Positions 17,585-26,747 of a DNA stretch of 64,000 bases are shown here, in pieces. The stretch is from Bacteroidota bacterium (lineage in GTDB: Bacteria > Bacteroidota > Bacteroidia > Bacteroidales > SZUA-534), in the NCBI GenBank assembly GCA_003250355.1, contig QKGS01000060.1, positions 1 through 64,000 on the forward strand. The letters run 5' to 3'. Positions within the stretch are counted from its first letter, which is position 1. Each line of letters opens with the position of its first letter. The translations under genes were made by a program, and so were the position numbers. The notes under the pieces are model-generated. The model saw only the letters and a list, made by a program, of their open reading frames with translations, did not search any database and was not told the origin of the DNA.

Positions 17585-17626
17585 ATGAGAATATTCTCAT
17601 TATATTTGCAGTGAGAATATTCTCAT
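17585..17626 (+). promoter_or_regulatory. Promoter bracketed by twin palindromic operators
   Basis: A 16-base perfect palindrome, ATGAGAATATTCTCAT, occupies 17585-17600, and its 14-base core TGAGAATATTCTCA recurs at 17612-17625. The two copies are 26 bases apart, about 2.5 helical turns. The -7 element TATATTTG (17601-17608) lies exactly between them, so a protein bound to both would cover the promoter core and the start region. The direct repeat extends over 20 bases. The likely ligand is the DUF134 DNA-binding protein encoded 16 bases downstream (autoregulation), an inference from position. Confidence 0.75.
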
Positions 17627-17641
17627 TATATATAGTATAAT

Positions 17642-18052
17642 ATGCCGAGACAGAGAAGACTAAGAAAAATAGTGGCCCCTCCAAAGTTTCAGGGGTATAA
17701 GCCATATGGAAATAACGATTATTCCACAGGTAGTATTGATTTGCTTTACGAAGAGTACGAAGCTATTAAGTTGGCTGATTACGATATGATGAAACATATT
17801 GATGCGGCAAAGTTAATGGGGGTTTCAAGGGCTACTTTTGCACGTATTTATGAAAGTGCAAGGCAAAAAATAGCTAAAGCATTTGTGGAAACAAAAGAGA
17901 TAATAGCAGTATATGGCAATGCCGAGTTCGATAAAAACTGGTATGTGTGTAATAATTGTAATTCAAGATTTACAATACCCTCAACAATTAATGAACAGAA
18001 ATGTCCTTTTGTATCTTGTTCATCCGACAATATTGAACTTATAAATAAGTAG
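17642..18052 (+). CDS. DUF134 predicted DNA-binding regulator with Cys-rich tail
   Basis: A 136-residue member of DUF134 (COG1342). The N-terminus MPRQRRLRKIVAPPKFQGYKP is the family hallmark. A sigma-70 region-4-like helix-turn-helix follows (LLYEEYEAIKLADYDMMKHIDAAKLMGVSRATFARIYESARQKIAKAF, residues 36-83). The C-terminal 40 residues carry a ribbon with Cys103/Cys106 (CNNC) and a second Cys pair in CPFVSC, suited to binding a metal or Fe-S cluster. DUF134 genes commonly sit beside NifX-type and MinD-type Fe-S genes, as here. It probably controls this operon through the twin palindromes upstream; a metal or redox signal sensed through the Cys residues is inferred. Confidence 0.85.
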   Translation: MPRQRRLRKIVAPPKFQGYKPYGNNDYSTGSIDLLYEEYEAIKLADYDMMKHIDAAKLMGVSRATFARIYESARQKIAKAFVETKEIIAVYGNAEFDKNWYVCNNCNSRFTIPSTINEQKCPFVSCSSDNIELINK

Positions 18053-18143
18053 TTGCTTAATATACTATTGTTAATGGTAATATGTAATAATATTGCTGAG
18101 TAACAATATAAAATTGATTTAGTAAGATTTTCAAATTAGAAAA

Positions 18144-18878
18144 ATGAATAAAAAAAGAGCTTCTGTAATTACAGTTATACTGTTTGCAATATTTGGAATA
18201 ATTAAGTTGTATCCTGAATTGATTTATTTACACAAATTCAAATATAATAACTACACATTTTATTCAAATTCGGCGATTGATTCAAATGCAGTAATAATTA
18301 TTAATACTACAAACAAGTTGGTATTGAATGATTTCATTGATTGTGTTCCAAATCAATATGATGTTTTTTTATGTAATTCCTACTCATTGTTTTGGTTGCA
18401 CACATTTTTAGGTCGCAAACCATCGGGAGCTTCAGATATGATTACGAATAATATTTATATAGCCAATGCTGATTGTAAAAAAAATATAGCATGTGGTTCA
18501 ATAAAGCATAAACAAATAAAAAGTAATGAACGGAGCTTAGAAAGTGTTATAGCTCACGAAACCACACATATTATGCTTCGCAATAAGCTTGGTATTAAAA
18601 ACTACCGTAAATTAGTTAAAAATGAAAATTGGAAAATTGAAGGTGTTTGTGAGTGGGTAGCGTTTAATGGCACAGAAATGAATGTAAATCAAATGATTGA
18701 GCTCATTAAATCCAAATCGTATATCAATAACCCTTGGCAAACATACCGGCTGTACCGATTTGCAGTTACATATCTGATACAAGCAAAAGGATACGGCTTG
18801 GAAGATATAATAACATATACCGATACATTTGAAGCAATATTACAAGAGCTTACTTCTATTAATAGTTACACTAAATGA
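18144..18878 (+). CDS. Membrane-anchored HExxH putative metalloprotease
   Basis: A 244-residue protein of no named family that I recognise. An N-terminal hydrophobic segment (SVITVILFAIFGIIKLYPELIYL, about 8-30) should anchor it with the body outside the cytoplasm. His138-Glu139-x-x-His142 in IAHETTHIMLRNKLG is a zincin motif, and the downstream WKIEGVCEW offers a Glu about 25 residues later as a possible third zinc ligand (gluzincin arrangement). Four Cys residues (VFLCNS, ADCKKNIACGS) might form disulfides. It lies 91 bases after the DUF134 gene and 15 before the first NifX-like gene, so it appears to be in the operon, an unusual partner for it. The peptidase role is predicted from the motif only. 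Confidence 0.6.
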   Translation: MNKKRASVITVILFAIFGIIKLYPELIYLHKFKYNNYTFYSNSAIDSNAVIIINTTNKLVLNDFIDCVPNQYDVFLCNSYSLFWLHTFLGRKPSGASDMITNNIYIANADCKKNIACGSIKHKQIKSNERSLESVIAHETTHIMLRNKLGIKNYRKLVKNENWKIEGVCEWVAFNGTEMNVNQMIELIKSKSYINNPWQTYRLYRFAVTYLIQAKGYGLEDIITYTDTFEAILQELTSINSYTK

Positions 18879-18893
18879 TAATACGATAAAAAC

Positions 18894-19208
18894 ATGAAAA
18901 CAGTAATTACATCATCGGGAAAAACCACCGATTCTGATTTTGACAAGAGATTTGGCAGGGCTGATTTTTTTTGTGTATTCGATAATGAAACAAATGAGAC
19001 TTCATTTATTGAAAATATACATAAAGATTCAAGCAATGCAGCCGGCACAAAAGCAGCTGAAGTTATGGTTGAATTAGGAGTAAGCAAAGTTATCTCGGGC
19101 GATTTTGGACCTAAGGCAAAAACAATGTTGGAAAAATTTGATATACAAATGGTAATAATTCAGGGCGATGGAGTAAAAATTAACGACCTGATAAAAAAAT
19201 TAAGTTAA
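18894..19208 (+). CDS. NifX/NifB-type (dinitrogenase Fe-Mo cofactor family) small protein 1
   Basis: A 104-residue single-domain protein of the dinitrogenase iron-molybdenum cofactor family (PF02579), with the RNase H-like fold: MKTVITSSGKTTDSDFDKRFGRADFFCVFD, then SNAAGTKAAEVMVELGVSKVISGDFGPKAKTML and a closing strand MVIIQGDGVK. Relatives bind Fe-S or mixed metal-sulfur clusters; the Desulfovibrio orange protein (ORP), which holds a Mo-Cu sulfide cluster, is one. This copy has a single Cys in the first half. It is the first of five genes spaced by 5 bases or less, followed by a second member of the same family. Confidence 0.85.
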   Translation: MKTVITSSGKTTDSDFDKRFGRADFFCVFDNETNETSFIENIHKDSSNAAGTKAAEVMVELGVSKVISGDFGPKAKTMLEKFDIQMVIIQGDGVKINDLIKKLS

Positions 19209-19213
19209 GAATT

Positions 19214-19555
19214 ATGAATAAGTTAATTGCAGTACCTGTTGATGAAGCAGGCGTACTTGATGCTCACTTTGGGCATTGTAAGTTTTTTATTTTAATAACT
19301 GTTGAAAACGGAGAGATAATAAATAAGGATAAAGTTGTACCTCCGCCTCACGAACCCGGTTTATTACCAAAGTGGTTGTCGGAAAAAGGTGTAACCGATA
19401 TTTTGGCAGGTGGTATGGGACAAAGAGCTAAAGACTTATTTGTTCAAAATAGAGTGAGTGTATTTGTTGGTGCACCTAAATTAGAAGCTGAAAAAGTTGT
19501 TCAGTCATTTTTGAAAAATGAAATAGAATTTCATGGTAACTATTGCGATCATTAA
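19214..19555 (+). CDS. NifX/NifB-type (dinitrogenase Fe-Mo cofactor family) small protein 2
   Basis: A 113-residue PF02579 protein, distinct from its neighbour: MNKLIAVPVDEAGVLDAHFGHCKFFILI, PPPHEPGLLPKWLSEKGVTDILAGGMGQRAKDLF and a C-terminal extension ending GNYCDH. The HFGHC and GNYCDH Cys/His pairs, together with the PPPHEPG loop, are features of ORP-like members and could hold a metal cluster. Its start is 5 bases after the preceding stop, and the next gene starts 2 bases after its stop. The pairing with two Fe-S MinD ATPases points to cluster assembly or cluster-dependent signalling, but no nitrogenase genes are present. Confidence 0.85.
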   Translation: MNKLIAVPVDEAGVLDAHFGHCKFFILITVENGEIINKDKVVPPPHEPGLLPKWLSEKGVTDILAGGMGQRAKDLFVQNRVSVFVGAPKLEAEKVVQSFLKNEIEFHGNYCDH

Positions 19556-19557
19556 AA

Positions 19558-20436
19558 ATGAGATACAAAATAGCAATAGCAAGCGGCAAAGGTGGAACCG
19601 GAAAAACATCGGTTGCTCTTCATATTTTTAATTTATTACAAAACAGAAAAGCCAATGTCGAATTATTCGATTTTGATGTTGAAGAGCCAAACGATTTGAT
19701 TTTTTTTCCGAATGCAAAAAAAATCAAAGAGACAATTGTAAATCAAAAAATTCCTGTTTTTATTGAACAGGAATGTACCTTTTGTGGCAAATGTGTTGAG
19801 TTTTGTGAATTTAACGCAATTTCACTAATACCCTCAGTAAAATACATATCGGTTGACACATCTTTATGTCATTCGTGTGGAGCTTGCACTCATGCTTGCA
19901 ACTACGATGCTGTATCAGAAACAAAAATGCAAATAGGTACTATAACCTCATATTCAAATGGTAATAATAGTATTACAGAAGGCAGATTAAAAATTGGTTC
20001 GGCAATGCAAACTATGGTTATTAAAGAGCTAAAAAAATATATTGATACAAATTCAACTGCAAAAATTCAAATTTTTGATTCTCCTCCCGGAACAAGTTGC
20101 TCGGTTGTTGAAACCATAATTAATACACATTATGTAGTACTGGTGGCAGAACCCACGCCATTTGGGTTACACGATTTAAAACTAATGGTAAAATTGATTA
20201 AGAAGTTAGAACTATCATATGGTGTGGTTATAAATAAAGCAGGGTTGGGTAATAATGACATATATGAATTTATAAAAGCAGAACAAATAGAAATGCTGGG
20301 AGAAATTCCTTTTAGTACAGAATTATCTAAATTATATTCTGCCGGCGATATGTTCAATAATATACCTATAGAAATACTAAATGCTTATGAGAATATCACT
20401 AAAGTGTTAATAGCAAAATTTCAGGCGTTATGTTAG
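19558..20436 (+). CDS. MinD/Mrp-superfamily ATPase with inserted ferredoxin domain 1
   Basis: A 292-residue P-loop ATPase of the MinD superfamily. The deviant Walker A is ASGKGGTGKTSVALHIF near the start. Two [4Fe-4S] motifs are inserted after the first strand-helix unit: CTFCGKCVEFCEFNAI (about 75-90) and CHSCGACTHACNYDAV (about 103-118). IFDSPPGTSCSVVE is the Walker B/switch region and VVINKAG the guanine-like loop. Proteins of this architecture occur in pairs in anaerobes, including the ATPases of the Desulfovibrio ORP complex. ATG 19558 is chosen over TTG 19543 because it follows the NifX-like stop by 2 bases and begins the canonical MRYKIAIASGKGG. It overlaps the next gene by 7 bases. 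Confidence 0.88.
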   Translation: MRYKIAIASGKGGTGKTSVALHIFNLLQNRKANVELFDFDVEEPNDLIFFPNAKKIKETIVNQKIPVFIEQECTFCGKCVEFCEFNAISLIPSVKYISVDTSLCHSCGACTHACNYDAVSETKMQIGTITSYSNGNNSITEGRLKIGSAMQTMVIKELKKYIDTNSTAKIQIFDSPPGTSCSVVETIINTHYVVLVAEPTPFGLHDLKLMVKLIKKLELSYGVVINKAGLGNNDIYEFIKAEQIEMLGEIPFSTELSKLYSAGDMFNNIPIEILNAYENITKVLIAKFQALC

Positions 20437-21296
20437 AAATAACAATTTTAAGCGGCAAAGGAGGAACTGGTAAAACTACTATTTCCGGAGCTTTAGTATC
20501 ATTAGCCGGCAACGCTATTATTTGCGACAACGATGTTGATGCTGCCGACCTTCACTTATTGTTACATCCAAAAATAAAAGAAAAACATAGTTTTTATAGC
20601 GGTTGGAATGTAACTATTGACAGTAAAAAATGTGTATCGTGCGGCAATTGCGAAAGTGTTTGCAGATTCAATGCTATCAGAAGTTTTCCCGGCGAAAACT
20701 ATGACATAAATCCATATTCATGCGAAGGTTGTCGCTTGTGTGAGCGTATGTGTCCGGTGGGAGCAATTAAATCGGAGCAGAATACTAACAATAAGTGGTA
20801 CGTATCAGATACAGAATATGGCAATATGATTCATGCCCAAATGGAACCCGGCGAAGAAAATTCTGGTAAGCTGGTATCTGAAATACGAAAAAAAGCTAAA
20901 GCGTTGGCTATTGCTAAAGAAAAAAAGTACATAATTAACGATGGTCCTCCCGGAATAGGTTGTTCAACAATTGCGTCAATTACCGGAACTAATAAGATTC
21001 TACTGGTTATTGAACCATCAAAGTCGGGGTTGCACGATGTTAAACGGCTTATTGAACTTATTGAAACATTTAAAATTGACACCTTTGCAGTTATTAACAA
21101 GTTCGATATAAACATTGAAGTGTCAGAAGATATTCAAAAATATCTGGCAGAAAAACAAATCCCACTTTTGGCAAAGATACCATTCGATAAATCAATGGTT
21201 GAGTCAATGGTATTGGGAAAGACTATAGTCGAATATAGTCCAGAATCGTATATCAGTATGCTAATCAAACAGGTTTGGAACAAAATATCAATTTAA
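20430..21296 (+). CDS. MinD/Mrp-superfamily ATPase with inserted ferredoxin domain 2
   Basis: A 288-residue paralogue of the preceding ATPase. Walker A is LSGKGGTGKTTISGALVSLA, with DNDVDAADLHLLLHP after it. Two [4Fe-4S] motifs, CVSCGNCESVCRFNAI (about 67-82) and CEGCRLCERMCPVGAI (about 97-112), are followed by NDGPPGIGCSTIASI and FAVINKFD. The pair probably forms a heterodimer that hydrolyses ATP while moving or inserting clusters for the NifX-like proteins. The start overlaps the previous stop (ATG at 20430, TAG at 20434-20436), indicating translational coupling. It differs from ParA above in having the ferredoxin insert. Confidence 0.88.
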   Translation: MLEITILSGKGGTGKTTISGALVSLAGNAIICDNDVDAADLHLLLHPKIKEKHSFYSGWNVTIDSKKCVSCGNCESVCRFNAIRSFPGENYDINPYSCEGCRLCERMCPVGAIKSEQNTNNKWYVSDTEYGNMIHAQMEPGEENSGKLVSEIRKKAKALAIAKEKKYIINDGPPGIGCSTIASITGTNKILLVIEPSKSGLHDVKRLIELIETFKIDTFAVINKFDINIEVSEDIQKYLAEKQIPLLAKIPFDKSMVESMVLGKTIVEYSPESYISMLIKQVWNKISI

Positions 21297-21297
21297 A

Positions 21298-21741
21298 ATG
21301 ATTATAAGTGAATGTAAATTACGTCCCCGATATGGCGAGGTAGACCAAATGGGATACGTATATCATGCAAATTATGTGAGTTATTGCCATCAGGCACGAA
21401 CAGAATTAATGCGCCAATTAGGAATAAATGACAGTATACTTGAAGCTCAGAACATAATGATGCCTGTAATATCATTCGATATTAAGTATAAAAAAGCAGC
21501 TCATTACGACGAAGAAATTCTAATTAAAACAACTGTTTGCGATATTCCAAAAGTTATATTATCGTTCGATTTTGCAATACTTAACTCAAGGGGTGAAATA
21601 CTCAGCACAGCTAAATCAACAGTAGCTTTTGTATATAAAGATACCCGAAAGCCAATGCGAGCTCCGAATATAGTGTCTCAAATACTAGAGAAACATATGT
21701 CTGCCGAAAATAAGAGTAAAACTAATGAACCTGTAAACTAA
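21298..21741 (+). CDS. YbgC-like hotdog-fold acyl-CoA thioesterase
   Basis: A 147-residue 4HBT-type thioesterase. The motif RYGEVDQMGYVYHANYVSYCHQART holds the catalytic Asp and His positions of the YbgC/4-hydroxybenzoyl-CoA thioesterase group, followed by the hotdog helix and strands (KYKKAAHYDEEILIKTTVCDI, GEILSTAKSTVAFV). It should hydrolyse a short-chain or aromatic acyl-CoA in the cytoplasm. Its start is 1 base after the second MinD-type stop and its stop 1 base before the next start, so it belongs to the operon despite having no obvious link to Fe-S chemistry. The substrate is unknown. Confidence 0.85.
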   Translation: MIISECKLRPRYGEVDQMGYVYHANYVSYCHQARTELMRQLGINDSILEAQNIMMPVISFDIKYKKAAHYDEEILIKTTVCDIPKVILSFDFAILNSRGEILSTAKSTVAFVYKDTRKPMRAPNIVSQILEKHMSAENKSKTNEPVN

Positions 21742-21742
21742 A

Positions 21743-22531
21743 ATGAAACTTACAATATTAACCGATAATTGTGGCGGCGATACATTTTTTGCCGAACATG
21801 GTTTATCGTACCTTATTGAACACGACGGCGAACGTATACTTTTCGATACCGGACACTCCGATGTGTTTATTAAGAATGCCCAAAAACTGGGTATAAACAT
21901 TAATAATGATATTGAAACAGTTGTACTCAGTCATGGACATTGGGATCATGCAAACGGTTTAAAATACTTATCGGGCAAAAAGCTTATAACTCATACACAA
22001 TCGTTTATGAAGAGATATCTTAAGAATGATAAAAGACGAATGCTGGGTATTGAATTATCAAAAGAAGCGATATCAAAAAAATTCGATCTTGTAACAACTG
22101 AACAACCATATAAAATAACCAACAATATAATTTTCCTTGGAAGCATACCGCGCGAAAATGATTTTGAATCGAAAACCACAATGTTTGTCGATAAAAGTGG
22201 TGAGCCCGATTTTGTTCCCGACGATTCAGCACTTGCTTTAATACAAAATAGGGAATTGATTATAATCACAGGTTGTTCGCACTCAGGTATTTGTAATATT
22301 ATAAGCTATGCGCAAAAAGTAACAGGAATTCTCGATATTAAAGCTGTAATAGGAGGGTTCCATTTGAAGCAAAACAATGAACAAACAAAAGAGACAGTGA
22401 AATTTTTGAAACAGCTTGAAGTAGAATACCTTTATCCTTCACACTGTACAGAGCTTGAAGCTTTAGTTTCTTTTTCAATTGAGTTCGGGATAAAACAGCT
22501 AAAAACAGGCCGGCAAATTGTAATATTATAA
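21743..22531 (+). CDS. Metallo-beta-lactamase-fold hydrolase (MptB/dihydropterin synthase-like subgroup)
   Basis: A 262-residue MBL-fold protein. The metal-binding motif is LSHGHWDHANGLKYL (HxHxDH, with the first positions SHGHWDH), preceded by LIEHDGERILFDTGHSDVFIKNAQKLGI and followed by ITGCSHSGICNIISYA and a C-terminal YPSHCTEL that supplies further His ligands. The N-terminus LTILTDNCGG is typical of the subgroup annotated as 7,8-dihydropterin-6-methyl-4-(beta-D-ribofuranosyl)-aminobenzene-5'-phosphate synthase, best known from methanogens, although bacterial members have unproved substrates. Last gene of the operon, with no clear terminator after it. Confidence 0.85.
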   Translation: MKLTILTDNCGGDTFFAEHGLSYLIEHDGERILFDTGHSDVFIKNAQKLGININNDIETVVLSHGHWDHANGLKYLSGKKLITHTQSFMKRYLKNDKRRMLGIELSKEAISKKFDLVTTEQPYKITNNIIFLGSIPRENDFESKTTMFVDKSGEPDFVPDDSALALIQNRELIIITGCSHSGICNIISYAQKVTGILDIKAVIGGFHLKQNNEQTKETVKFLKQLEVEYLYPSHCTELEALVSFSIEFGIKQLKTGRQIVIL

Positions 22532-23392: not shown

Positions 23393-25237
23393 ATGAAAAC
23401 TAAATTTATTTGCTTAAGCTCTGTATTTATAATACTATCACAAATTGCCGTTTCACAAAAGCTAGAACCAATTGGTTCTGTAACTATTAGTAATAGCCCT
23501 ATTGCTATAACTTTTACTCCGGGTGGGCAAGAATTATTAGTATCAACATCTGCTAAAGAGTTAGTTACCATTTCTGTTAAAGATTTGAAAGTAACAAATT
23601 CAAAAGCAATGCCGGCAAAAATTAAAGACCTCTCATACAGCCCTGACGGTAAGTATTTCGGTTTTTTAAGCAGTAAGCTTTATGTTTACGATGCCGCAAC
23701 CGATAAACAGTTGGGAATAAGTAAAAAAGGGGGTATGCAATCTTTTGCTTTTGTTGGCGGAGGCATAGAAGAGGCTGTTGTAACATTTCCAAAGCCGGGC
23801 AAGTTGATGATACTTGACAATAAAACTCAATCAGTTACACATGAATTTAATAATATTTACAGCTATAACATTTGGAAAGATGTTGATGTAAGCCACGACG
23901 GGCAAGAATTTCTTGTAGTCAATAATCTTGATGTTTTCGTATATGATTATATTGCAAAAGGGAACACACTGCGACGTTTTCAGAAACCAAATGATAAAGA
24001 GAAGTTTTGGCATAAAGCAAAATTTAGTCCCGACAAAAGCATTATAATGGCATTAGTTGGAATGCATTCAAAATATCCTTCGATAGAGTTTTATGACAGA
24101 GACTCAGAGAAAAAAATTGGCGACCTTCCTGTTTCAAATAGAGGCAATAAAAGCGGAGATATTGACTTTGCCATAAGTTCTGATGGAAAAAAAATAGCTG
24201 TTTGTAATTCTAAAGACAATCTTATACGCTTATGGGATATATCGTCACTTTATCAACTTACCGAACATCATAAAATGTTAGCAGAAAAGAAAAAGGCCGA
24301 AGAAGCCAAAGCTGCAGAACAGGCAAAAGCAAACGAAGCTAATGTGTCGCAACAGCAGCTTCAAACTATAATGGCAAAAATAGATGCTTTGAATAATGCT
24401 CCGGCAGCAACAGCAGCCCTTACTAAGAATAACTTATGTAAAGAAACAGATTTGGATATTCCTGTTACTGAAGAGCAACATCCATTGCGTTTTGCACTTA
24501 TTATAGGCAATGAAGATTATTCGTCGTATCAAACAGGACTTGAAAGTGAAGTTAATGTAGACTATGCGGTAAACGATGCTAAAGTATTTAAAGAATACAT
24601 GATAAAGACGCTTGGTATACCTGAAAATAATGTTACGCTTTTAGAAAATGCTACTGCCGGACAAATGAATCAAGCTCTAAGTAAGTTCAATAAAATAATA
24701 GAATATTCAAACGGACAAGCCGAAGTATTTTTTTATTATTCTGGTCATGGATTACCCGATGAAAACACAAAAGAGAGTTATATAATGCCGGTTGATGTAA
24801 GCGGTTTTACATTACAATACGCTATAAAAGTTGATGATGTGTATAAAAAACTAACCCAACACCCATCGAAAAAGGTAACAGTATTTATGGATGCTTGTTT
24901 TAGCGGAGGTTCTCGCAACGAGGGTCTTGTGGCAGTAAAAGGGGTAAAAATAGTTCCTAAAGAGGGGGTAATAAAAGGAAATATTGTAATATTTACTTCA
25001 AGCTCAGGCGATGAATCGTCGCAAGTATATAAAGAAAAGTACCATGGTATGTTTACATATCATTTATTAAAAAAGCTTAAAGAAACCAAGGGAGACATTA
25101 CATATCAGCAATTATCTGATTATTTGAATAGCAGTATTAAACTACAATCTGTAATTATTAACAATAAAGTGCAAACCCCAACAACAAATATTAGTTCTGA
25201 CATAATAGACACTTGGGGTGATTGGAAACTAAAATAA
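23393..25237 (+). CDS. Secreted caspase-family (C14) peptidase with beta-propeller domain
   Basis: A 614-residue protein. A signal peptide (MKTKFICLSSVFIILSQIAVS) leads to a WD40-like propeller at about 25-290 (SPDGKYFGFLSSKLYVYDAATDKQL and AISSDGKKIAVCNSKDNLIRLWDISSL). An Ala/Lys/Glu/Gln-rich coiled coil follows (about 295-335), then a caspase-like peptidase domain at 370-614. The catalytic dyad is intact: His452 in YYSGHGLPDE and Cys502 in FMDACFSGGSR. Family knowledge places cleavage after Lys or Arg for bacterial metacaspase-like enzymes, but specificity here is not known. It is 28 bases upstream of a second caspase gene and probably co-transcribed. The export signal argues for a periplasmic or extracellular role. 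Confidence 0.85.
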   Translation: MKTKFICLSSVFIILSQIAVSQKLEPIGSVTISNSPIAITFTPGGQELLVSTSAKELVTISVKDLKVTNSKAMPAKIKDLSYSPDGKYFGFLSSKLYVYDAATDKQLGISKKGGMQSFAFVGGGIEEAVVTFPKPGKLMILDNKTQSVTHEFNNIYSYNIWKDVDVSHDGQEFLVVNNLDVFVYDYIAKGNTLRRFQKPNDKEKFWHKAKFSPDKSIIMALVGMHSKYPSIEFYDRDSEKKIGDLPVSNRGNKSGDIDFAISSDGKKIAVCNSKDNLIRLWDISSLYQLTEHHKMLAEKKKAEEAKAAEQAKANEANVSQQQLQTIMAKIDALNNAPAATAALTKNNLCKETDLDIPVTEEQHPLRFALIIGNEDYSSYQTGLESEVNVDYAVNDAKVFKEYMIKTLGIPENNVTLLENATAGQMNQALSKFNKIIEYSNGQAEVFFYYSGHGLPDENTKESYIMPVDVSGFTLQYAIKVDDVYKKLTQHPSKKVTVFMDACFSGGSRNEGLVAVKGVKIVPKEGVIKGNIVIFTSSSGDESSQVYKEKYHGMFTYHLLKKLKETKGDITYQQLSDYLNSSIKLQSVIINNKVQTPTTNISSDIIDTWGDWKLK

Positions 25238-25265: not shown

Positions 25266-26747
25266 ATGAAAAGAGAAATAATTCTTATAGGAGTATTGTT
25301 TTCTGTATTTACTCTTATAGCTCAAGATAGCTTTAAGCATAATAAGGATGGGTTTTCAGTAGAATTTCCTGCACCTAATGTAGAAGTTAGTAAAAACTTA
25401 AGTAAATACTATAAAGAGATTCGAGGCATTCGTTACCTGCTTTACAAAGCTTCAGATTATGATATGGAGTTGTCGGACTTAATGAGCAATAATAAATCGC
25501 AACAAGTAAATGAATATAAAGTAGGTAGAGAAAATTATCGAGTAGCTAACGTATACGGATTATTTGAATTAACATTAACATCGGATATAAAGAAGAATTT
25601 GAATCCTTCGAGCTTTTATAATAAAACGGTATTAAAAGGAGAAGCAGCAATGGAAGGTTCGAAAAAGCCTGCAAATACATGGTTGTTTGAAATTGATAAC
25701 GGAGTAATTGTTCTAAGTGTTATGTCTCTGAGAGATGATAATTATCCGGATCTTTCAACTGTTTATCCTTTTATTTCATCACTAAAACTTGCCGATGGTT
25801 ACACTTATGATATTCCAATAAATATTACTGCTGCAAATTACAAATACGATGGGCCTAATATTGGAACAGGCTTTACATTTGCCTCACAACCTCAACAACA
25901 ATCTCAAGACCAACCCGGAGCAGTAATTCAGAGAAGTGAAAGTGATTATCAACAAAGTAGTACCCCTTTGTCTGATGTAGATGAAAACATACCAACTGCA
26001 GCCAAGGAAAATAAAAATACATTTGCTGTAATAATCGGAAATGAAGACTATGACAATGAGATAAAAGTAAACTACGCCAAAAATGATGCAAATACATTTA
26101 AAAAATATGTAGTAAAAACATTAGGTGTTCCGGTCGATCAGGTTCATTATATTGAAAATGCAACGTTTGGTAAAATGCTGGGTGAGCTTGACTGGCTAAA
26201 AAGTGTTGCAAAAGCATATGCAGGAGAGGCTAAAATAATTTTTTACTATGCCGGACACGGTATGCCCGATAATGAAACAAAAAGTGCATATCTGTTACCC
26301 GTTGATGGTTCTGCTTCGCAAACACGCACGGCTATAAAAATTGATGAACTTTACGGCATATTAAATAACAGCCCTGTGAAACAATCGACAGTGTTCTTAG
26401 ATGCTTGTTTTAGCGGAGCAGCCCGCGATGGTATGTTGGCATCGGGCAGGGGTGTAACCATTAAGCCCAAAACATCGGTACCAACAGGTAAACTTGTTGT
26501 GTTTACTGCTGTATCAGGCGATCAAACAGCCCACCCATACGAGGAAAAGGGCCATGGATTATTTACATACTATTTGTTAAAAAAACTACAGGAAACCAAA
26601 GGTGATGTAACTTATAAGGAACTTGGCGATTACATTAATTCAGAAGTAACTAAGCGTTCTGTTGTAAGTGGCAAAGAGCAAAGCCCAAAAGTTAATGTAG
26701 GTACTTCAATTGTAAATGAATGGGGTGGTTGGAAGTTTGTTGATTAA
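25266..26747 (+). CDS. Secreted caspase-family (C14) peptidase with novel N-terminal domain
   Basis: A 493-residue protein beginning with a signal peptide (MKREIILIGVLFSVFTLIAQ). Residues 20-185 form a globular alpha/beta region (HNKDGFSVEFPAPNVEV, YRVANVYGLFELTLTSD, VIVLSVMSLRDDNYPDL) unlike the propeller of its neighbour, followed by a Gln/Ser/Pro-rich linker. The C-terminal caspase domain (about 250-493) is closely related to that of the upstream gene: KNTFAVIIGNEDYDNEIKVNYAKNDANTFKKYV, His331 in YYAGHGMPDN and Cys381 in FLDACFSGAAR. Both catalytic residues are present. The shared peptidase domain suggests tandem duplication with exchange of the sensing N-terminus. A terminator follows. 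Confidence 0.85.
   Translation: MKREIILIGVLFSVFTLIAQDSFKHNKDGFSVEFPAPNVEVSKNLSKYYKEIRGIRYLLYKASDYDMELSDLMSNNKSQQVNEYKVGRENYRVANVYGLFELTLTSDIKKNLNPSSFYNKTVLKGEAAMEGSKKPANTWLFEIDNGVIVLSVMSLRDDNYPDLSTVYPFISSLKLADGYTYDIPINITAANYKYDGPNIGTGFTFASQPQQQSQDQPGAVIQRSESDYQQSSTPLSDVDENIPTAAKENKNTFAVIIGNEDYDNEIKVNYAKNDANTFKKYVVKTLGVPVDQVHYIENATFGKMLGELDWLKSVAKAYAGEAKIIFYYAGHGMPDNETKSAYLLPVDGSASQTRTAIKIDELYGILNNSPVKQSTVFLDACFSGAARDGMLASGRGVTIKPKTSVPTGKLVVFTAVSGDQTAHPYEEKGHGLFTYYLLKKLQETKGDVTYKELGDYINSEVTKRSVVSGKEQSPKVNVGTSIVNEWGGWKFVD

Follow-up and report, generated by a model that had tools for sequence, protein, structure and literature searches.

The DUF134-NifX-MinD locus

We analysed a 64,000-nucleotide stretch of DNA from a Bacteroidota bacterium of the SZUA-534 lineage (assembly GCA_003250355.1, contig QKGS01000060.1, positions 1 to 64,000), referred to here as the window. 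The locus of interest (17585-22531) begins with a gene for a DUF134 protein. An earlier note on this DNA had described a compact anaerobe operon under DUF134 control, with two NifX-domain proteins and paired iron-sulfur MinD ATPases resembling the orange protein (ORP) complex of Desulfovibrio. All eight open reading frames (ORFs) were verified at the coordinates given there, as were the domain families of all but the HExxH protein. The span in that note begins at 17585, the edge of the first of two palindromes that it left undescribed. These palindromes, the proposed operators O1 and O2, flank a promoter box ahead of DUF134. The features of the locus are listed below.

17586-17599, unstranded: operator O1, perfect 14-bp palindrome TGAGAATATTCTCA, directly 5' of the promoter box
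17601-17608, + strand: Bacteroidota -7 promoter element TATATTTG (TAnnTTTG), 15 bp from the start of O1
17612-17625, unstranded: operator O2, second perfect TGAGAATATTCTCA, 26 bp from O1, covering the predicted transcription start
17642-18052, + strand: DUF134 putative regulator (PF02001), sigma-region-4-like helix-turn-helix (HTH) and C-terminal CxxC/Cys knuckle
18144-18878, + strand: HExxH putative metallopeptidase, motif HETTH, without a Pfam family
18894-19208, + strand: NifX1, ORP-like Nitro_FeMo-Co protein (PF02579, 53 bits)
19214-19555, + strand: NifX2, like the NifX domain of MrpORP (PF02579, 61 bits)
19558-20436, + strand: MinDa, P-loop ATPase, CbiA/ParA with two Fer4 (4Fe-4S) motifs
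20430-21296, + strand: MinDb, P-loop ATPase, CbiA/ParA with two Fer4 (4Fe-4S) motifs, start overlapping MinDa
21298-21741, + strand: YbgC/MenI-like acyl-CoA thioesterase (TE; TIGR00051, 86 bits, above cut-off; MenI_Staph, 100 bits)
21743-22531, + strand: MBL-fold hydrolase of the TM1679 type (PF00753; PDB 3h3e, TM1679, E=1e-37)

We conclude that the eight genes do form an operon, and that it serves an orange-protein-like metal-cluster system. From NifX1 (18894) onward the intergenic gaps are 5, 2, -7, 1 and 1 nt, and 15 nt separate HExxH from NifX1. The description of the unit as compact holds from HExxH onward, but not for the 91-nt gap between DUF134 and HExxH. Neither an operator nor an intergenic promoter box was seen in that interval. 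A separate TAnnTTTG box lies at 18824-18831, in the 3' end of HExxH and 63 bp before NifX1, with no operator, and is a possible internal promoter.

Operators on the DUF134 promoter

O1 and O2 lie on either side of the promoter box TATATTTG. Allowing up to two mismatches, TGAGAATATTCTCA has three matches in the window against 0.39 expected, and no exact copy besides O1 and O2 was found in the organism's own 3.7-Mb genome. One-mismatch sites in that genome (L003-L005) were dropped, since they are inside or at unrelated coding regions.

Conservation was assessed in 80 named DUF134 loci from Bacteroidales, Marinilabiliaceae, Marinifilum, Maribacter, Lutibacter, Melioribacteraceae and Ignavibacteria. 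These loci were gathered by similarity to the window's DUF134 and are mutually related. The same operator lies upstream of DUF134 in all 80, and in 70 it starts exactly 15 bp before TAnnTTTG. About a third of the loci have an O2 equivalent (25 tandem pairs), with the 26-bp spacing kept in 20 of the 25. Upstream regions of roughly 650 other genes in the same loci yielded no true case; the three scored matches are alternative DUF134 starts.

A probable one-residue recognition code

The window's DUF134 protein scores 79.4 bits to PF02001, where the gathering score is 27 bits, and is a member of the family. In an AlphaFold2 model (predicted local distance difference test score, pLDDT, ~92 over residues 41-80), Ala67 falls in the predicted recognition helix, residues 63-83. 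A PDB search by sequence found no relative. By structure, Foldseek matched the tri-helical HTH to region 4 of E. coli SigE on DNA (PDB 2h27; 1.0 Å over 48 columns).

In distant relatives the palindrome is still on the promoter and its half-site varies, being TGAAC, TGAGC, TGTGC or TGCAC. We compared half-site and helix residue across 148 loci. The half-site covaries with the specificity residue, the X of SRxT[F/L]XR in the DUF134 recognition helix. Ala goes with TGAGA (88 of 89 loci), Thr with TGAAC (34 of 35), Gly with TGAGC (16 of 17), and Gln with TGTGC (2 of 2). The lone Thr exception, L253, carries a TGAAC/TGCAC site as well. A DUF134 tree was computed with the recognition helix masked. 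In this tree, an Ala/GAGA pair (L071) sits outside the main Ala clade, within a Thr-type group (0.92 local support), and a Gly/GAGC pair (L252) sits outside the main Gly clade. Because the half-site tracks the helix residue, which is the main evidence on this point, the palindrome appears to be read by DUF134 itself and not by another protein. Under this code Ala would read TGAGA, Thr TGAAC, Gly TGAGC and Gln TGTGC.

Sites across genomes

Exact TGAGAATATTCTCA occurs at 29 sites in 23 genomes (reversed control, 0), and 23 of the 29 are at DUF134 promoters. Other exact sites precede DUF5320 genes (L206, L209) and Mrp genes (L151; also L303, 220 bp upstream and without the promoter register). Composite scans, in which operator and box were searched for together, covered 99 genomes, 51 DUF134-positive and 48 DUF134-negative. 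The composite TGAGAN4TCTCA-N-TAnnTTTG gave six matches, all at DUF134 (control, 0). The Thr-type (TGAAC) composite gave 33 matches in 28 genomes, of which 26 are at or just upstream of DUF134 and one is at a contig edge. It is present in 27 of the 51 DUF134-positive versus 1 of the 48 DUF134-negative genomes (Fisher P = 3e-9). In trans, this composite precedes a NifX-DUF5320-NifX-MinD unit (L267), an MrpORP gene (L291), DUF5320 (L274) and DUF5320-MinD (L281). Against NF041136 the L291 protein scores 314 bits where the cut-off is 450, but it has both the Mrp and NifX domains.

Promoter palindromes of 14 bp fit many dimeric regulators, and these sites could be bound by a LexA-, MarR-, TetR- or Fur-like protein, with DUF134 a bystander. 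The TGAAC variant, GAACN4GTTC, resembles the Firmicutes LexA box, which counts for such a regulator. Among the extra operator sites inspected there were no DNA-repair genes; composite sites were at DUF134, NifX, MinD, Mrp and DUF5320 genes. Binding by another regulator is also hard to square with a half-site that changes in step with the DUF134 helix residue over four residue classes. Composite sites are nearly confined to DUF134-bearing genomes, before ORP-family genes, and exact TGAGAATATTCTCA is nearly absent away from DUF134. We consider a bystander role for DUF134 extremely unlikely.

Operator conservation, promoter register, helix/half-site covariation and the trans sites together indicate that DUF134 is very probably an operator-binding autoregulator of an ORP-like regulon. 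The DUF134 control proposed in the earlier note thus has strong evidence from sequence comparison behind it. Several observations weigh against this conclusion. Ser-type helices (6 loci) go with mixed operators, and the nested transitions have moderate tree support. Raw P values overstate independence, because the 80 named loci are relatives of one another, gathered by similarity to this DUF134. Sampled Chlorobiaceae DUF134 genes, which encode a TFGR helix, have no self-operator or common palindrome within 400 bp, and an operator is also lacking from a minority of the Bacteroidales DUF134 genes (L066, L073, L074, L077, L078). Two exact TGAGAATATTCTCA sites are inside genes (L199, L210), and a TonB receptor gene and an aminotransferase gene each have a TGAAC-type site ahead of them. 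Finally, operator position alone is compatible with activation from within the promoter spacer.

Proposed mechanism

A DUF134 dimer, contacting DNA directly, would bind the TGAGAATATTCTCA palindromes on the core promoter and block RNA polymerase. Its targets would be its own gene and the NifX/ORP, MinD, TE and MBL genes; in relatives they would extend in trans to DUF5320, Mrp and MrpORP genes. Because O1 is upstream of the -7 box and O2 is over the predicted start, steric repression with autoregulation is the most likely mode of action, and we regard repression as likely. The main rival is activation by DUF134, for example by a MerR-like re-alignment of promoter elements. This would suit the location of O1, which occupies the spacer ahead of the -7 box in a fixed 15-bp register, and the likeness of the DUF134 fold to sigma region 4, an RNA-polymerase-binding domain. 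It does not suit O2, which in 25 tandem pairs covers the predicted start site and, when occupied, should be an obstacle to transcription, or those loci whose better site is the one downstream of the box (L046). Activation is therefore unlikely, and repression is the mode that we prefer.

The signal is a more speculative matter. The CxxC/Cys knuckle of DUF134, the usual placing of NifX next to it and the fusion of the two in L069 make a metal-sulfide or redox state plausible. Such a signal, which we suggest tentatively, might be sensed via the Cys knuckle and/or a NifX partner. By analogy with ORP and MrpORP (PMC6345978), the most likely role of the ATPase pair would be to mature or move a metal-sulfide cluster on NifX2. 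Taken further, DUF134 could be a widespread, hitherto unassigned regulator family that uses a one-residue code, governs ORP-like NifX/MinD/Mrp systems across Bacteroidota, senses metal-sulfide or redox state and possibly pairs with NifX. We rate this wider proposal just short of an even chance.

The uncharacterised DUF134 family gains from this analysis a testable candidate function and operator, together with a promoter geometry and a specificity code of one residue. The analysis also ties it to the ORP/NifX/MinD metal-protein systems, which are little understood, and among them to MrpORP genes in trans. Searches with the operator pattern could turn up more regulon members in other genomes, and what switches DUF134 off would indicate what the ORP system handles.

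Core and accessory genes

The ORP-like core is as the earlier note had it, made up of two proteins with a NifX domain and two Fe-S MinD ATPases with two clusters each. NifX1 has a PDB match in D. gigas ORP (2wfb, E=3e-8). NifX2 (113 aa) has an HFGHC motif and a Cys/His tail, and it scores 115 bits against the C-terminal NifX domain of MrpORP (NF041136), without reaching the whole-protein cut-off. MinDa and MinDb are 29% identical.

Partner genes in the 80 named loci include NifX (75 loci), MinD (68), DUF5320 (30), an ARMT1-like phosphatase (29) and DUF4405 (14). NifX starts just after DUF134 in 66 loci. TE is present in 25 loci and MBL in 17, with both in 8. In related loci 4-bp overlaps are frequent, both between MinDb and TE and between TE and MBL; because of them we take TE and MBL to be genuine recurrent accessory genes. 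The suggestion that the extra genes belong to the system is thus borne out for TE and MBL, but not for HExxH, which is in none of the 80 loci. The core also occurs without these genes, in that most loci lack TE, MBL or both. By the refuting condition set in the earlier note, a core lacking the extra genes in related genomes, this counts fully against HExxH and in part against TE and MBL. The label of anaerobe is probably too narrow, because the operon is also present in Maribacter and Lutibacter.

Searches placed the HExxH protein in no Pfam family and found no PDB relative, giving only a weak flagellinolysin match, and it stays a peptidase-like protein. Its hydrophobic N-terminus is the sole basis for a predicted membrane anchor. 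One explanation, in line with the earlier note, treats the eight genes, HExxH among them, as a single new functional system and a distinct Bacteroidetes variant. HExxH is indeed inside the transcription unit, 15 bp from NifX1, and the interval between DUF134 and HExxH has no operator or promoter box. However, a search of 99 relatives found, besides the window copy, only two remote homologues, neither beside DUF134. In the window HExxH breaks the usual adjacency of DUF134 and NifX1, and its G+C content (0.298) is the lowest of the eight genes. A single eight-gene system is thus very unlikely. HExxH is probably a lineage-specific insertion and not a core component, and it is probably co-transcribed with the operon.

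Other genes accompany DUF134 elsewhere. In 7 of 40 order-level loci a methionine gamma-lyase gene comes after DUF134 (L052, L053, L059, L070, L077, L080, L084), and 7 of the 40 have a 1-Cys peroxiredoxin (L056, L058, L067, L068, L070, L072, L081). Housekeeping-type copies (peptide deformylase, RibA, ZIP transporter, TrmO) recur inside DUF134 operons (L104, L108, L111, L115, L121, L135; L091, L093, L094, L095, L107), perhaps a hint of metal limitation. Prolixibacteraceae and related loci (L135, L137, L142, L145, L156, L157, L161) have two divergent DUF134-NifX units, back to back. The TFGR-helix DUF134 loci without a palindromic self-operator within 400 bp (L169-L198) are mostly one family, apparently Chlorobiaceae. 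Downstream of the operon in the window, two neighbouring large proteins (23393-25237, 25266-26747) have a common C-terminal caspase-like domain with YYSGHG and DACFSG motifs.

Relation to known systems

The window protein has the HTH and Cys knuckle of the DUF134/UPF0251/COG1342 family (PF02001); an operator and regulon are proposed for it here, and none are assigned in searchable papers. The searched literature, mostly without subscription papers, held no description of DUF134 (UPF0251/COG1342) binding DNA or of these operators. At least one literature match to 'DUF134' was to a different family, DUF1349, and was rejected. The HTH fold is like that of sigma factor region 4 (2h27), but DUF134 is a stand-alone HTH protein with a Cys knuckle and palindromic targets, and is no sigma factor.

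A third NifX domain in the organism's own genome was rejected as part of the ORP-like system, because it belongs to NifB in a nif cluster. That cluster, on contig C40 (L260:571-3270), has nifB with its NifX domain, a 2Fe-2S ferredoxin gene and nifV, and is separate from the window NifX proteins; by these genes the organism carries nitrogen-fixation genes. Contig C44 of the same genome (L300, ~26 kb) has a small NifX-like ORF, DUF1847-like and thioredoxin genes, and a divergent Crp/Fnr-type regulator. This is a possible second ORP-like mini-cluster under different control.

Among the closest known systems is the Desulfovibrio vulgaris ORP complex, which comprises five proteins, Orp3/4/5/8/9, and whose operons encode MrpORP (PMC6345978). 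The orp operons of Desulfovibrio are controlled by sigma54, an enhancer-binding protein (EBP, DVU2106) and IHF (PMC3897727). The analogy drawn in the earlier note holds for the parts, but not for control or for MrpORP. Here a single unit has DUF134 at a TAnnTTTG promoter, whereas Desulfovibrio has divergent operons under sigma54/EBP/IHF, and none of the eight operon genes encodes an EBP. No MrpORP fusion was found in the organism's own genome, where the search gave an unfused Mrp (contig C92) and separate NifX domains. NifX2 resembles the C-terminal domain of MrpORP (NF041136) but is a separate protein without a fused Mrp domain.

The locus might nonetheless be the Desulfovibrio ORP complex itself, transferred to Bacteroidota. 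The match of NifX1 to 2wfb, the paired two-cluster MinD proteins as in Orp3/Orp4 (PMC6345978) and the operator before MrpORP in L291 would fit a transfer. The missing fusion and the different regulator and promoter type (PMC3897727) would not, and neither would the TE, MBL and ARMT1-like partners, since the five proteins reported for the ORP complex include none of these (PMC6345978). Transfer of the complex as such is thus improbable. What the two systems have in common is NifX/ORP-domain proteins with paired P-loop ATPases that carry two ferredoxin motifs (Orp3/Orp4; PMC6345978), and MrpORP, which in the relative L291 is also part of a DUF134-type regulon.

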